From Betaproteobacteria bacterium Ga0077540 (GTDB lineage: Bacteria > Pseudomonadota > Gammaproteobacteria > Burkholderiales > Methylophilaceae), in the NCBI GenBank assembly GCA_001464125.1, contig LNEP01000004.1:1-64000 (forward strand): a stretch of DNA of 64,000 nucleotides, read 5' to 3'. The notes under the pieces were generated by a model. That model was not told where the DNA came from, did no database searches, and saw only the letters and a list, made by a program, of their open reading frames with translations. Shown one piece after another: positions 32,845-46,894 of this stretch (the stretch's first letter is position 1; each line of letters begins with the position of its first letter). Position numbers and translations under genes: made by a program.

Positions 32845-34047
32845 TTAACTGTAGTTCAAACCCATGACATCGCGCACATCACGCATGGTCTCGCGAGCCA
32901 ATTTGCGTGCTTTTTCACAGCCTTCGGCCACAATATTTTTCACCAAGGTAGGGTCTTCCGCATATTCGGCAGCACGTTCCTGAATCGGTTTCAACTCATT
33001 CACCACACCATCAATCACCGGCTGTTTACACTCAATACAGCCGATAGAAGCCGATTTACAGCCATTCTGTACCCATGCTTTCACAGTATCATCCGAATAG
33101 ACTTCATGCAGCTGCCACACTGGACATTTAGCTGGATCACCCGGATCTGTTCGGCGAATACGCGCTGGATCTGTTGGCATCGTTTTAATTTTCTTGGCCA
33201 CGACATCGATCGGCTCGCGCAAGGAAATAGTATTGTTATAAGACTTGGACATTTTCTGTCCATCTAAACCAAACATCTTGGAAGCTGGCGTCAGTTTGTA
33301 TTCCGGCTCTACCAAAATGATTTTGCCACCGCCCTCCAAATAACCGAGCAAGCGCTCTTTGTCGCCCATGCTCATGCCTTGCTGTTCTTCAATCATGGCG
33401 CGCGCCGCCTCTAACGCTTCTTCATCGCCGCCTTCTTGATAAGCTGCACGCATTTCTTCGTATAGTGCGGCGCGTTTGGAACCTAGCTTTTTAATGGCGG
33501 CTTCTGCTTTTTCTTCAAAGCCTTTTTCGCGACCGTAAATATGATTAAAGCGTCTAGCGATTTCACGTGTTAGTTCAATGTGTGGCACTTGGTCTTCGCC
33601 CACTGGCACTTGTGTGGCTTTATAAATCAAAATATCTGCACTTTGCAGTAAGGGGTAACCTAAAAAGCCAAAGGTCGATAAATCTTTATTGCTAAGCTTT
33701 TCTTGCTGATCTTTATACGTAGGTACACGCTCCAGCCAGCTTAGCGGTGTCATCATGCTAAGCAAGGTATACAACTCAGCATGCTCAGGCACGCGGGATT
33801 GAATAAAGATGGTGGCGTTGGCGGGATCAACACCAGCTGCTAACCAGTCAATCACCATATCCCATACGCTTTCTTCAATTACTTCCGGCGTATCGTAATG
33901 CGTGGTAAGTGCATGCCAATCTGCTACAAAGAATAGACACTCATGCTCATGTTGCAGACGTAACCAATTTTTGAGTACGCCATGATAATGCCCCAAGTGT
34001 AACTGCCCTGTGGGGCGCATGCCCGATAAAACGCGTTCAACCGCCAT
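32845..34047 (-). CDS. trpS: Tryptophan--tRNA ligase
   Basis: LSGMRPTGQLHLGHYHGVLKNW; KMSKSYNNTI. Confidence 0.95.
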   Translation of the reverse strand: MAVERVLSGMRPTGQLHLGHYHGVLKNWLRLQHEHECLFFVADWHALTTHYDTPEVIEESVWDMVIDWLAAGVDPANATIFIQSRVPEHAELYTLLSMMTPLSWLERVPTYKDQQEKLSNKDLSTFGFLGYPLLQSADILIYKATQVPVGEDQVPHIELTREIARRFNHIYGREKGFEEKAEAAIKKLGSKRAALYEEMRAAYQEGGDEEALEAARAMIEEQQGMSMGDKERLLGYLEGGGKIILVEPEYKLTPASKMFGLDGQKMSKSYNNTISLREPIDVVAKKIKTMPTDPARIRRTDPGDPAKCPVWQLHEVYSDDTVKAWVQNGCKSASIGCIECKQPVIDGVVNELKPIQERAAEYAEDPTLVKNIVAEGCEKARKLARETMRDVRDVMGLNYS

Positions 34048-34155
34048 AGTGATTCAAATCCAAAGAAAATTAAACTCTAAAACCTGCACCTAATTATAGA
34101 TGATGCCTGTCTAAATTATCCATGCTTTTATGCGGCATGGTATGCAGAACTGCAT

Positions 34156-34794
34156 TTACATGAAGACTACGTAAATGAGCCTTTCAAACAACTGGATAAT
34201 GGGCGAGATGATTTTGCCCAAGATACCGGTAAACATCAGCACAATCAGTATGATAAACCCGTATTGCTCCAACCGCGCCAATTGAATCGCCATTGGCGTA
34301 GGTAACAAACTCACGGCAATACGACCGCCATCCAAAGGCGGCATAGGCAGTAAATTCAGCACCATCAGCACCAAGTTAATGGAAATGCCAGCCAAGCTCA
34401 TTTCTGCTAAAAAATTAACCGCAGTATTAGGTGCGTAATTAGCGTAGCTTAATAGCAACGCCCAAAAAATGGCCATGATAAAATTAGAAGCTGGACCTGC
34501 GGCAGCCACCCAAAACATGTCTTTTTTAGGGTTACGTAAATTGGCAAAATTGACAGGTACCGGCTTGGCCCAGCCAAACAATATACCGCCGAGCATAACC
34601 GTTAATGCAGGCAGGAGAATTGTGCCAAACGGATCGATATGCTTCAGCGGATTTAAGGTAATCCTACCCATACGCTCAGCCGTTAAATCGCCAAAGTATT
34701 TAGCTGCATATCCATGCGCTGCTTCGTGCACAGTGATTGCAAACAAAATGGGTAGCGCGTAAACGGCTATTTTCTGAACAACGGTTAGTTCCAA
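34156..34794 (-). CDS. Site-2 protease family (M50) membrane metalloprotease
   Basis: ITVHEAAHGYAAKYFGD (HExxH variant HEAAH); NLLPMPPLDGGRI. Confidence 0.9.
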   Translation of the reverse strand: MELTVVQKIAVYALPILFAITVHEAAHGYAAKYFGDLTAERMGRITLNPLKHIDPFGTILLPALTVMLGGILFGWAKPVPVNFANLRNPKKDMFWVAAAGPASNFIMAIFWALLLSYANYAPNTAVNFLAEMSLAGISINLVLMVLNLLPMPPLDGGRIAVSLLPTPMAIQLARLEQYGFIILIVLMFTGILGKIISPIIQLFERLIYVVFM

Positions 34795-40604: not shown

Positions 40605-40675
40605 TTATTCGTCTGGAATGACTGCTTTCTGTTAAAATAATGCTTGAAAATTTTTACCATAAAGCCCTCTCACTC

Positions 40676-43600
40676 ATGTCCAGTTCTAAATCTAGCGCCT
40701 ATTGTTTAAGCCTCCGAGGCAGTTCTGCTTTATCGCAATTTCGCCTTGATAAGCTATATGCATCACTCAAGCACACAGCCCCTAGCATTCAGCACGTTTA
40801 TGCAGAATTAATGCATTTTGCCTTTAGCGAAACAGCGTTGTCTGAACATGAGCAAAGCACACTCAAACAAATCTTGACCTACGGTCCCAAAACCAATACT
40901 GAAGCACCGAATGGTGAATTGTTTTTGGTGATTCCACGTATCGGCACAATCTCACCTTGGGCATCACGTGCAACAGATATTGCTAACAATTGCGGGCTTG
41001 ATACAGTATTGCGTCTTGAGCGCGGCATCGCTTATTACGTGACGACACGAGATGGCGGTCCGCTAAATGATGTGGAGAAAGCGGCATTTAAAGCTGCCAT
41101 TCATGACCGCATGACGGAGTCTGTGGTGGGTGAACTGCAAGCGGCTGAACATTTATATCACCATGCCGACCCTAAACCCTTGAGCACCATTGATTTGTTG
41201 CAAGGCGGCAAAGCTGCTTTAGAATCAGCTAACAACGAGATGGGACTGGCATTATCACCTGATGAGGTGGACTACCTGCTAGAAAATTACCGCAAAATGG
41301 GACGCAACCCAACCGATGTTGAACTGATGATGTTTGCGCAAGCTAACTCTGAGCATTGTCGCCACAAAATCTTCAATGCGGATTGGGTGATTGATGGCGT
41401 GCAACAAGACATCTCTCTGTTTGGCATGATACGTAACACCCACAAACTCAATCCCGGCAGCACGGTAGTCGCCTATTCAGACAACTCTTCAATTGTGGCT
41501 GGTCAAAAAACACAGCGTTTTTACCCAAGCCAATCTGGTGAATATCGTTTTGTAGAAGATGATATGCATTACTTGATGAAAGTAGAAACGCATAACCACC
41601 CCACTGCTATCTCTCCATTTGCTGGCGCTGCTACCGGTGCCGGTGGTGAAATCCGTGACGAAGGTGCAACAGGTATTGGTTCTAAACCCAAAGCTGGTTT
41701 AACTGGATTCTCCGTTTCCAATCTGAACATTCCAGGCTTCAACCAACCTTGGGAAACGTCTTATGGCAAACCCGGCCGCATTGCCAGCCCATTACAGATT
41801 ATGATTGATGGCCCCTTGGGCGGTGCAGCGTATAACAATGAGTTTGGACGCCCAAACATTGCTGGTTATTTCCGCACGTTTGAGCTAGAAAGCAAAGATG
41901 CAGAAGGCCAGCCAGAAGTTCGTGGTTACCACAAGCCGATTATGCTGGCGGGTGGTGTCGGCAATATTTCTGATAAGCACTCTCATAAAAATGCGATTCC
42001 CGCAGGTGCAGCGTTAATTCAATTGGGTGGCCCAGCCATGTTGATTGGTTTAGGCGGTGGCGCGGCGTCCAGTATGGATACTGGTGCTAATACCGAAAAT
42101 CTCGACTTTGACTCTGTGCAACGTGGCAACCCTGAGCTACAACGCCGCGCGCAAGAAGTGATTGACCGTTGCTGGCAACTGGGCGATAACAACCCCATTC
42201 TCAGCATCCACGATGTAGGTGCCGGTGGCATCTCTAATGCTTTCCCGGAATTAGTCAACGACGCTAAAATTGGCGCGATATTCCAGCTCCGTAACGTGAA
42301 CAACGAAGAGCCTGGCATGAGTCCACGCGAACTTTGGAGTAACGAGGCACAAGAGCGCTATGTGATGGCCGTAGCCAAAGAAAACTTAGCACTGTTTGAA
42401 GATATATGCGCCCGTGAGCGCTGCCCATTCGCGATTGTCGGCATTGCCACTGAAGAGCGCCATTTAACGGTGGAAGACAGCCACTTTGCCAATAAGCCCG
42501 TCGACATGGAGCTTTCTGTGTTACTGGGCAAGCCCCCTAAAATGACACGCGATGTGAAAAGCACGCCCAAACAACTGCAAGCGTTTGATACCAGCAAAAT
42601 TGATATCACCGAAGCAGCATCACGTGTATTGCGCTTACCCGGTGTGGCAGACAAAACTTTCCTGATTACCATTGGTGACCGTTCGGTGACCGGCTTGATT
42701 GCGCGCGATCAAATGGTGGGGCCATGGCAAGTACCAGTGGCTGATGTTGCCGTGACTTTGGCAGGCTATCAAACCAATGTGGGTGAAGCCTTTGCCATTG
42801 GTGAAAAAGCGCCGATTGCTCTGATTGACGCCCCAGCGTCTGGCCGCATGGCGATTGGTGAAGCCATCACCAATATTGCTGCTAGTTGGATTAGCGAGAT
42901 TGGTAATTTGAAGCTATCCGCCAACTGGATGGCGCCTGCCGGTCACACTGGAGAAGATGCAGCCCTGTTCAATACCGTCAAAGCCGTGGGGATGGAATTG
43001 TGCCCTGCTCTAGGTATTAGCATCCCAGTGGGTAAAGACTCCATGAGTATGAAAACCGTTTGGGATGACAATGGCACTAAAAAAGCGGTGACCTCGCCGA
43101 TTTCTTTGGTGATTTCTGCTTTTGCCAACACACAAGACGTTCGTAAAACACTCACTCCACAGCTGCGCACAAACTTAGGCGAAACCGCATTAATCCTGAT
43201 TGACTTAGGTAACGGCAAAAACCGTATGGGCGGCTCATCGCTGGCACAGGTATATAGCCAACTTGGCAATAGCGCGCCTGATGTAGACAATCCGGCGCAA
43301 CTCAAGCAATTCTTTGCACAGATTCAAGCATTGAATACCGATGGCAAATTGTTGGCTTACCATGACCGAAGTGATGGTGGCCTTTTCGCTAGTTTATGTG
43401 AAATGGCATTCGCCGGCCATTGCGGCATTGATGTAGATTTAAATAGTCTGCAAGGCGATGCGATTAGCGCACTGTTTAACGAAGAGTTGGGTGCGGTATT
43501 GCAAGTGCGTGTAGATGACGCCCAAGCTATTTTGTCACAACTGAATGAAGCGCTGGGCGCTTGTGCCTACCAGATTGGTACTGTCAACAATGGTCATCAA

Positions 43601-44596
43601 ATTCAAATCTGCAAAGATAAAACGCACTTTAAGGATAGCCGCGTAAACTTGCATCGCATGTGGTCTGAAACCACTTACAGCATGCAAAGTCTACGTGATA
43701 ACCCGCAATGCGCTCAACAAGAATATGACCGCATTCTGAATGAATCGGATGCTGGCATGCATGCACACTTAACCTTTAACCTAGAAGATGATGTTGCTGC
43801 GCCATATATCAACACAGGCGTCCGCCCTAATATGGCCGTTTTGCGTGAGCAAGGTGTGAATGGCCAAACAGAAATGGCGGCAGCGTTTGACCGTGCCGGA
43901 TTTAACAGCGTTGATGTGCATATGAGTGACGTGATTGCCGGCCGTGTTTCACTCAAAGATTTTGCCGGTCTGGTCGCCTGCGGCGGCTTCTCTTATGGCG
44001 ACGTCTTAGGGGCGGGTGAAGGTTGGGCAAAATCCATTTTATTTAACAGCCGCGCACGAGATGAATTTAGTGCGTTCTTTAACCGCCAAGATTCATTCGC
44101 GCTGGGCGTATGTAACGGTTGCCAAATGATGAGCAATTTACACAGCATCATTCCTGGAAGCACACACTGGCCACACTTTGTGCGCAACAAATCCGAACAA
44201 TTTGAAGCACGCTTTGCGATGGTTGAAGTACTAGACTCACCTTCCATCTTCTTTAACGGCATGGCCGGTAGCCGCATGCCAATTGCAGTGGCGCATGGTG
44301 AAGGCTTTACGGAATTTTCTGACAAAAGCGCTGTCACAACAGTGCTCAATCAACAATTAGCGACGATGCGGTTTATCGACCATGCGTCAACGCCAACTGA
44401 AGTGTATCCGTTTAACCCAAACGGTTCACCTCAGGGTTTAACTGGGTTTACCACCACGGATGGGCGTTTTAGTATTATGATGCCTCATCCTGAACGGGTG
44501 TTTAGAGCGGTACAACATTCATGGCGGCCAGATGATTGGCAAGAAGATGGCCCTTGGATGCGTATGTTCCGGAATGCTAGAAAATTTATTGCTTAA
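40676..44596 (+). CDS. purL: Phosphoribosylformylglycinamidine synthase (large single-chain)
   Basis: [18 protein letters not shown]; glutaminase [14 protein letters not shown]; listed ORF begins at 40640. Confidence 0.97.
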
Positions 44597-44640: not shown

Positions 44641-45129
44641 ATGAATATGATTAAAGGGTTATTAGCACTGGTTGCATTATGTTTTTCACTCAACAGCTTT
44701 GCACTTACAGATGAAGAGTATTTGGAGTTTACTGAAGCACTAGGCAACGGCAACACTAAAGTAGTGAAAAAATATGTAGATGCAGACCCAAAACTGGTGA
44801 ATGAGAAGTTCTTTGCTTGGCAGCCTCTACAAATGGCGGCTACTAAAGGCAGATTTGAGACAGTAAAATACTTAGTAGAAAAAGGTGCTGATCTTAATTA
44901 TGCACACCCTGCCAGCAAAATGACCGCATTTCACTTGGCGGCATTCGATGGTTACGAAGATATCGTTAAATATCTTGCTGCCAAAGGTGCTGATGTGAAT
45001 ATTAAAATGAAAGGTGATGTATCTCTCATTCGCGTCATGAAAGATGAAGGACCACGTGCTGAAAAAATGGTGCAATTGCTAACGTCACTTGGCGTAAGCG
45101 AAGAGGGTTGCGAAGGTAAGTGTAACTAA
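44641..45129 (+). CDS. Exported ankyrin-repeat protein
   Basis: Signal peptide MNMIKGLLALVALCFSLNSFA; LQMAATKGRFETVKYLVEKGADLNY repeats. Confidence 0.8.
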   Translation: MNMIKGLLALVALCFSLNSFALTDEEYLEFTEALGNGNTKVVKKYVDADPKLVNEKFFAWQPLQMAATKGRFETVKYLVEKGADLNYAHPASKMTAFHLAAFDGYEDIVKYLAAKGADVNIKMKGDVSLIRVMKDEGPRAEKMVQLLTSLGVSEEGCEGKCN

Positions 45130-45186
45130 ACTTCAGCGCTATAGATCACTTTGCATGCGTGACCTACGTCACCAATCAAAGATTAG

Positions 45187-45246
45187 AAAAGGCTTTAACA
45201 TGGTAACTTTTAGCATAGAATGCTTACCATGATTAAGGCCTTTTTT
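45187..45246 (+). promoter_or_regulatory. Long terminator/attenuator-like hairpin spanning the start codon of the cytochrome gene
   Basis: aaaaggctttaa-catggtaa pairs with ttaccatg-a-ttaaggcctttt (20 bp, one G.U, one bulged A), inner gcat-aga-atgc stem, TTTTTT at 45241-45246. Confidence 0.65.
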
Positions 45247-45606
45247 CTTGCTACAAGCTTACTCCTATCGGCATCTTTAGTGCCTGCAGAAGAGTCTTCG
45301 ACCATCAACATACAAAATCAACAATCTCATACACGAATACTGGCTGCATCATGTGCTGCCTGTCACGGCACCCAAGGCAATAGCGTTGGCATCACCCCTA
45401 CCCTTGCGGGACTAGACAAGGGTTATTTTGTTACTCAGATGCTAGCGTTTAAACGAGGTGAGCGCAGCCCCACTGTCATGCATCATCACGCGAAAGGTCT
45501 GACCGAAGATGAGATACAGTCGCTAGCAGTGTATTTCGCACAACAGCCCCGTGTTACTCACATTGCACCAAAAACAGAACAACTGAAGGAAAGTCATGGC
45601 CACTAA
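45229..45606 (+). CDS. Periplasmic monoheme cytochrome c (FccA/c553-like)
   Basis: Signal peptide MIKAFFLATSLLLSASLVPA; CAACHGTQGNS heme site. ATG at 45220 also possible. Confidence 0.85.
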   Translation: MIKAFFLATSLLLSASLVPAEESSTINIQNQQSHTRILAASCAACHGTQGNSVGITPTLAGLDKGYFVTQMLAFKRGERSPTVMHHHAKGLTEDEIQSLAVYFAQQPRVTHIAPKTEQLKESHGH

Positions 45607-46894
45607 CCTGCTTTCTGATAGCGAAATTGATATTCAACGTAGGCGCATTTTGCAAGCCACCGCCTTTGGTGCGGCTTTGCTCACAGCCAATGTTGGCATG
45701 GCTCGCGCCAGTAAACCACCCATGGGTCGCGTGGTGATTATCGGTGGCGGCTACGCTGGCACCACCGCTGCTAAATATATCCGCATGTGGAGCTTGGGCA
45801 ATATTGAAACGGTGGTGATTGAACCATCCAGTCAGTTTGTGTCCTGCCCACTCAGTAATTTGGTGCTGGGCGGAAGCAAAACTATCCATGACCTCACCTT
45901 TGGCTATAGCATGGTCAGCAAACATCACGGTATTCAATGGGTCAAAGACAGTGTAGTGAGTGTGGATACCAACGCTAAACGTGTGCGTATGTCTCGCGGC
46001 GAGATCTCATATGACAGGTTGATAGTCGCGCCGGGGATTGACGTCAATTATGACCGCACCCCTAACTTAGCTAACGCTGAAGCACAGACGCTTATTCCGC
46101 ATGCTTGGAAAGCGGGTTGGCAAACCGTTAATTTACGTAAGCAGCTTGAAGCTATGCCAGATGGTGGCGTGTTTGTACTCACCGTACCTAAAGCCCCCTA
46201 CCGCTGCCCTCCCGGTCCTTATGAACGTGTGTGTCAGGTAGCGAGTTACTTTAAACAACACAAACCACGCAGCAAGGTGGTAGTGCTGGATGCAAACCCG
46301 GAGATTACTTCTAAAAAAGGGTTATTCAATCTGGCGTTTACGCAAACCTATGCCGGTATTGTCGATTATCGCCCGAACAACGAACTGGTGTCCGTCGATA
46401 TTCCGACCAAAACCGTGACGACTGAGTTTGAGCAAATCAAAGCGGATGTACTAAACGTGATACCGCCGCAACTGGCAGGAAAAGTGGCTCAGCAGATGGG
46501 CCTCAACAACATTGACAAGCGCTGGTGTGAAGTGGATTTCTTAACCTATGCCTCTGCTATCGACCCGAATATTCACGTGATTGGTGACAGCGTTTCTGCC
46601 GGCTTACCAAAATCTGCACACATGGCAACATCGCAAGCCCGTGTTTGTGCCGCCGCGATGGTTGCATTGATGAGCGGTGAGCAGCCAGATCCGTTGCCGG
46701 TGTTTGCCAATACTTGCTACAGTTTCATCGACGATCAACAAGCAATTCATGTTGCCAATGTCTATCGCTACGACCCTGCCAAAAAAGTGATGATCTCAGC
46801 AGAAGGCGGTGGCGTGTCTACTGCTGCTTCTGCACAAGAAGGACAGTACGCATTCGCATGGGCGAACAATATCTGGTCTGACGTTTTAACCTAG
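45596..46894 (+). CDS. FAD-dependent sulfide dehydrogenase flavoprotein (FccB-like)
   Basis: Tat-like RRRILQATAFGAALLTANVGMARA; VVIIGGGYAGTTAAKYIRMW; SQFVSCPLSNLVLGG. Confidence 0.88.
   Translation: MATNLLSDSEIDIQRRRILQATAFGAALLTANVGMARASKPPMGRVVIIGGGYAGTTAAKYIRMWSLGNIETVVIEPSSQFVSCPLSNLVLGGSKTIHDLTFGYSMVSKHHGIQWVKDSVVSVDTNAKRVRMSRGEISYDRLIVAPGIDVNYDRTPNLANAEAQTLIPHAWKAGWQTVNLRKQLEAMPDGGVFVLTVPKAPYRCPPGPYERVCQVASYFKQHKPRSKVVVLDANPEITSKKGLFNLAFTQTYAGIVDYRPNNELVSVDIPTKTVTTEFEQIKADVLNVIPPQLAGKVAQQMGLNNIDKRWCEVDFLTYASAIDPNIHVIGDSVSAGLPKSAHMATSQARVCAAAMVALMSGEQPDPLPVFANTCYSFIDDQQAIHVANVYRYDPAKKVMISAEGGGVSTAASAQEGQYAFAWANNIWSDVLT

Follow-up and report, generated by a model that had tools for sequence, protein, structure and literature searches.

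A hairpin at the start of the fccA-like cytochrome gene spans a conserved -10 box, the start codon and the first signal-peptide codons. We favour, as rather probable on the sequence, the view that it is a read-through silencer like the hairpins of T4 gene e and I-TevI, fused here with the terminator of the upstream gene. RNA from the neighbouring gene would probably be stopped or left untranslated, and RNA from the operon's own promoter would probably escape. To a fuller version of this proposal we give about even chances: one element of about 60 bp would be upstream terminator, -10 region, start codon and signal-peptide codons at once, only the operon's own regulated promoter would express it, and the element would derive, by outward growth, from an older start-codon hairpin that is found across the family and that compensatory changes preserve as its sequence turns over. 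The fold, the overlap with the promoter, the fixed promoter spacing and the conserved complementarity with sequence turnover are read from the DNA itself.

The host is a methanol-eating member of the Methylophilaceae, with Methylophilus and Methylotenera as its nearest named relatives. The window (the whole 64,000-nucleotide stretch analysed) carries, in order, purL (40640-44596, named from its translation), a gene for a small, secreted ankyrin-repeat protein (44641-45129, plus strand; Pfam Ank matches), the fccA-like monohaem cytochrome c gene (45229-45606, plus strand; Pfam Cytochrom_C, start set by orthologue comparison), the gene for an fccB-like flavocytochrome c sulfide dehydrogenase flavoprotein (45596-46894, plus strand; Pfam FCSD_central at 1e-44 and FCSD-flav_bind) and that for a GSDH-like protein. 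The purL and ankyrin genes together are the proposed source of read-through RNA. Neither inspection nor the terminator scan showed another terminator-like site between purL and fccA, the interval from the ankyrin stop codon to the hairpin included.

The left arm of the hairpin (45187-45206, plus strand, aaaaggctttaacatggtaa) overlaps the promoter and pairs with the right arm (45224-45244, plus strand, ttaccatgattaaggcctttt), which holds the fccA start codon and codons 2-6. Direct reading gives 20 pairs with one G.U, one bulged A at 45232 and a 17-nt loop; an inner AGCAT-AGA-ATGCT helix is also present, in competition with the outer stem's innermost A-T pair. The stem is directly followed by TTTTTT (45241-45246, plus strand), which supplies codons 5-6 (Phe-Phe) of MIKAFFLA counted from the ATG at 45229. 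Both in-frame ATGs (45220 and 45229) lie inside the hairpin, and no Shine-Dalgarno (SD) sequence is visible outside it in the window. On all of these points (arms, pair count, G.U, bulge, inner helix, T6, reading frame, buried ATGs and the lack of a good external SD) our reading agrees with the original prediction. The closest orthologue has GTG at the equivalent of 45220 and starts at the equivalent of 45229, so that 45229 is the likely start codon.

The fold is far more stable than expected from composition. A 131-nt segment folded at -37.4 kcal/mol, where shuffles averaged -23.4 (z -4.7), and the 62-nt hairpin at -26.1 kcal/mol (z -6.1), with none of 200 shuffles as good. Genome sequence was examined in stretches totalling 1.12 Mb. 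A scan of 458 kb of the genome returned 556 terminator-like hairpins, of which the present one (-24.7 kcal/mol, then T6) was the second most stable; it asked loosely for a stem and then a T-tract, and 428 of its 556 hits lie inside crude ORF calls, so that it serves as a yardstick and not as a terminator census. It was the only one of these hairpins at -18 kcal/mol or below to span a same-strand gene start. A simple terminator scan misses it because the loop exceeds the length permitted. The stable stem, the flanking A- and U-tracts and the position directly after a gene with no other terminator are those of an intrinsic terminator. Unlike a usual one, it contains a promoter -10 box, a start codon and signal-peptide codons, and has a 20-pair stem with a 17-nt loop.

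We collected fccB loci from species-level genome collections and 187 family genomes and reduced them to 101 distinct fccA starts, in which four layouts were recognised by inspection. Methylophilus sensu stricto (layout a) has a separate terminator, an activator site, an AATAAT -10 box, a GGGGGA SD and an ATG. The window clade and most Methylotenera (layout b) have neither an SD nor a separate terminator; an arm directly after the -10 box is complementary to the bases at the ATG. One Methylotenera group (layout c) has an apparent TTG start with the SD in a small loop: in L007, L052, L054 and L060 the apparent TTG start comes right after a CAATATT-(AAGG)-AATATTG hairpin whose loop holds the SD. 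In layout (d), fccA follows the ankyrin stop by 9-41 nt, with no activator site and no such hairpin. A promoter-anchored hairpin was seen by inspection in neither layout (a) nor layout (d), and in none of five readable operon-type loci had the activator site been relocated ahead of the ankyrin gene.

Within the window clade the stem is longer. In L002, L032 and L033 it extends outward via AAAAGGCTTTA/TAAAGCCTTTTTT (TTAAGGCCTTTTTT in the window), covering the -10 box and codons 2-6. A stem with T-tract is present in L032 (z -5.9) and L033 (z -5.9), both with T6, and in weaker form in L096 (AAGAC/GTCTT; z -3.1), with T5. An older start-codon stem thus appears to have grown outward into a terminator. 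That the U-tract also encodes Phe-Phe would then be a consequence of position, hydrophobic signal-peptide codons being T-rich. The suggestion that the ankyrin terminator was co-opted into the coding start gains support: no other terminator lies between the two genes, the nearest orthologues keep stem and T-tract, and the more distant Methylophilus sensu stricto has a separate terminator and an SD-led start. The same strong stem with T6, and the restriction of the outer stem and T-tract to this clade, could mean that the hairpin is only the ankyrin gene's intrinsic terminator, its overlap with promoter and start being compaction with no role in translational silencing. We regard this as unlikely, since Methylotenera loci with no T-tract keep a shorter stem that ends at or near the ATG and shows compensatory changes, for which termination alone is insufficient.

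The promoter overlies the left arm. A candidate CRP-type activator site (GTGACCTACGTCAC, GTGA-N6-TCAC; 45159-45172, plus strand) is an exact palindrome, is conserved upstream of fccA and has three exact copies in the genome. The -10 box TAACAT (45196-45201, plus strand) lies inside the left arm and is conserved in the 42 loci of layout (b) that were anchored on it; its A at position 2 and T at position 6 are invariant there, both being positions weighted in the anchor, and the box is also evident by eye in orthologues. Where GTGA-N6-TCAC is matched at 7 or 8 of 8 positions, its centre falls 33-37 nt before the arm start. Class II CRP promoters have the activator site near -41.5; here its centre would lie at about -40 to -44 relative to a start 5-8 nt past the -10 box, as expected of a class II CRP/FNR site. 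Because the -10 box is in the arm and the activator spacing is fixed, the predicted transcription start falls within the left arm or beyond it. In the window this would be 45207-45210 (plus strand), 6-9 nt after the -10 box; the -41.5 geometry gives 45207. A recognisable activator site was found in 20 of the 42 anchored loci, about half having none.

A second possible -10 box, TAGAAT (45216-45221, plus strand), lies 20 bp downstream of TAACAT, with 7 nt between it and the ATG; from this class I spacing it could give a leaderless mRNA. Its counterparts are a near match, TAGAGT, in L032 and TAAAAT in L096, and it is not clearly kept in L033. As the sole model a leaderless promoter was rejected: it fits the window and L032, is unclear in L033, and the Methylotenera loops have no -10 box at that distance; we retain it as a second possibility. 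From either box, the promoter-born mRNA is predicted to contain little or none of the left arm.

The incomplete genome yielded a single PF13545 CRP/FNR-family gene (L172 1030-1704; G000:C1 about 33922-34596). It adjoins a gene for an ETHE1-like persulfide dioxygenase, lies about 2 kb from an SQR-like gene, and its product keeps in the recognition helix the R-E-x-x-x-R of E. coli CRP, the reader of GTGA. This protein is a candidate sulfide-responsive activator of fccAB. A link to sulfide control is plausible.

Besides terminator co-option, the original prediction had offered an attenuator or riboregulator gating fccAB, and this half of its either/or finds no support. The operon's own mRNA would have to fold the hairpin and a signal open it, in keeping with the sequestered start codon, the U-tract that follows and the lack of a visible external SD. 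The conserved -10 box in the left arm, with the CRP-like site at class II spacing, points the other way: with its predicted start within that arm or beyond it, the operon's transcript should be unable to fold the hairpin, which would then not lie in a leader downstream of the promoter. A start in this position is among the refuting observations named in the original prediction, and is predicted here from conserved promoter anatomy. For an attenuator, transcription would have to begin more than 10 nt ahead of the -10 box. No alternative antiterminator was seen in the window fold, and the Rfam search gave no family at its cut-off and sub-threshold chance matches only, with no known RNA family or sensing domain. 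We consider an attenuator improbable.

The covariation check proposed in the original prediction turned up compensatory changes among orthologues. The 42 loci were picked by -10-like motif, SD absence and gap length, pairing not being used, and the ATG was placed by hand in four (L002, L033, L051, L096). There is a tendency in these loci for the 8-9 bases on the 3' side of the -10 box to complement the bases at the fccA ATG. We paired the 12 nt that follow each -10 box with a start region taken either from that locus or from a different one; own arms averaged -8.37 kcal/mol and exchanged arms -5.68 (sd 0.33), and none of 20,000 permutations, in which kinship is ignored, was as low; own-arm pairing reached -6 kcal/mol or below in 32 of the 42. 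In fixed register 69.6% were paired, compared with 63.8% after shuffling (0/500) and 42-52% when slid, and 26 cells were changed on both sides compared with 14.5 when shuffled (2/500), kinship again being ignored in both. Three of five pair-count measures lay beyond the shuffles and two did not.

Because the permutation ignores relatedness, the argument for complementarity is carried by the tree and the varied arm sequences. On the fccB tree there were at least five changes at pair 2 and at least eight at pair 4. Arm pairs across loci include GGTGTTTT/AAAACACC, GATGTTCA/TGAACATC, GACGTTTT/AGGACGTC, GACAATG/CATTGTT, GGGGTTCAT/ATGAACCCC, GGTAA/TTACC and GGCGT/ACGCC, with GATGTTTTA/TAAAACATC as a further compensatory example; such changes occur in several lineages, with variable loop length. 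Pairing has decayed in L073, L084, L134, L091 and L008. L079 retains the stem, with a compensatory change (GGTGTTCTAA/TTAGAACACC); its ATG is now ATT and the start has moved about 30 nt downstream. An alternative, antiterminator-like upstream hairpin (CCATT-TAG-AATGG) was rejected, not being kept when the arm changes (L042, L061).

This turnover bears on whether the inverted repeat acts as DNA, as the operator of a repressor dimer covering the -10 box, start site and ATG. The repeat does lie exactly over promoter and start, and GGTGTTTT/AAAACACC recurs in many Methylotenera. A protein operator usually keeps sequence and spacing, but here arm sequences differ between species with complementarity kept, the left-arm-to-ATG distance is about 24-37 nt in paired loci and loop length varies; we think an operator very unlikely. 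Least probable is a neutral by-product of quasi-palindrome correction (template switching), which would keep the arms complementary without selection and can yield compensatory changes, and with which the loss of the stem in some loci and the lack of clear enrichment of start-codon hairpins in the genome (10 real and 6.0 shuffled at -18 kcal/mol) agree, but over much of a family the two arms begin at fixed landmarks, the left one at the -10 boundary and the right one at the ATG or close to it, and neutral palindromes would have no regard for these.

Hairpins at two further ATGs were noted. A lolC-like gene 2.8 kb past the window end (G000:C4:66853-68169, minus strand; L230) has TACATAAT-GGGTGGAA-loop-TTCCACCC-ATG at about -25 kcal/mol; this hairpin is kept, with some mismatches, in four close relatives counting L230, and not in other Methylophilus. 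Across the genus TAAGAT or TTAACAT stands 6-7 nt before the ATG, which suggests a leaderless mRNA. At G000:C1:297622-298125, a nearly perfect 17-pair hairpin (CATGTAGGCGTTTGT-AGG-ACAAACGCCTACATG) covers an in-frame ATG of a short ORF.

A read-through barrier would work as follows, with start site, termination, loss of read-through translation and regulator identity all predicted. Polymerase arriving from purL and the ankyrin gene would transcribe both arms, and the fccA start codon would be hidden in the stem formed by this RNA. The stem of the window clade ends in a U-tract that would terminate transcription, so that it would double as the ankyrin terminator. With the fccAB promoter (CRP-type site and -10 box) overlying the left arm, promoter-born mRNA would lack that arm, leaving the ATG open with no termination, and the operon would answer to its own regulated promoter only. 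Since the start is predicted inside or downstream of the left arm, only purL/ankyrin read-through should be able to form the hairpin. In the window, the predicted energy for opening the start region falls from 16.5 kcal/mol for read-through RNA to 4.4 for the promoter-born form; the medians are 7.1 and 3.7 in the 42 loci (Wilcoxon p 6e-7), and 6.2 and 5.5, with little gap, in the 59 others. Against a barrier stand a stem longer than a usual terminator's, the activator site in only 20 of 42 loci, the decayed pairing in some, the L079 stem with no start codon, the two pair-count measures that did not surpass the shuffles, a permutation and shuffles that ignore kinship, the ATG placed by hand in four loci and the lack of clear genome-wide enrichment of start-codon hairpins.

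The arrangement has known parallels. IS10/Tn10-type elements shield their transposase gene from external transcription through a read-through RNA whose folding conceals the start region, as proposed here; unlike IS10/Tn10, the fccA locus is not a mobile element and has a terminator fused to the hairpin. In phage T4 such logic is proven for gene e (lysozyme), soc, 49 and I-TevI: long transcripts begun upstream hold the SD and/or AUG in a stem, a late promoter at the stem's 5' strand gives shorter transcripts that lack this strand and are translated, and the leader structures are kept in related phages (PMC3014915, PMC2988022). The fccA hairpin shares the start codon in the stem and the conservation in relatives, and its -10 box and activator spacing predict a promoter over the 5' strand. 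It differs in that it lies on a bacterial chromosome, in an operon that has an activator-type promoter and lacks an SD. A further difference, in the window clade, is that the stem would double as an intrinsic terminator with a coding U-tract. No bacterial chromosomal case of this logic was found in the open-access literature, an incomplete sample.

In compact bacterial genomes genes must be shielded from their neighbours' transcription. If confirmed, the fccA hairpin would show the T4 lysozyme trick at work on a chromosome, in an energy-metabolism operon, with terminator, promoter and coding start as one sequence. Gene, terminator and promoter finders usually treat these three as exclusive and would therefore miss such an element. 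The finding bears on how bacteria silence inducible operons without a spacer.
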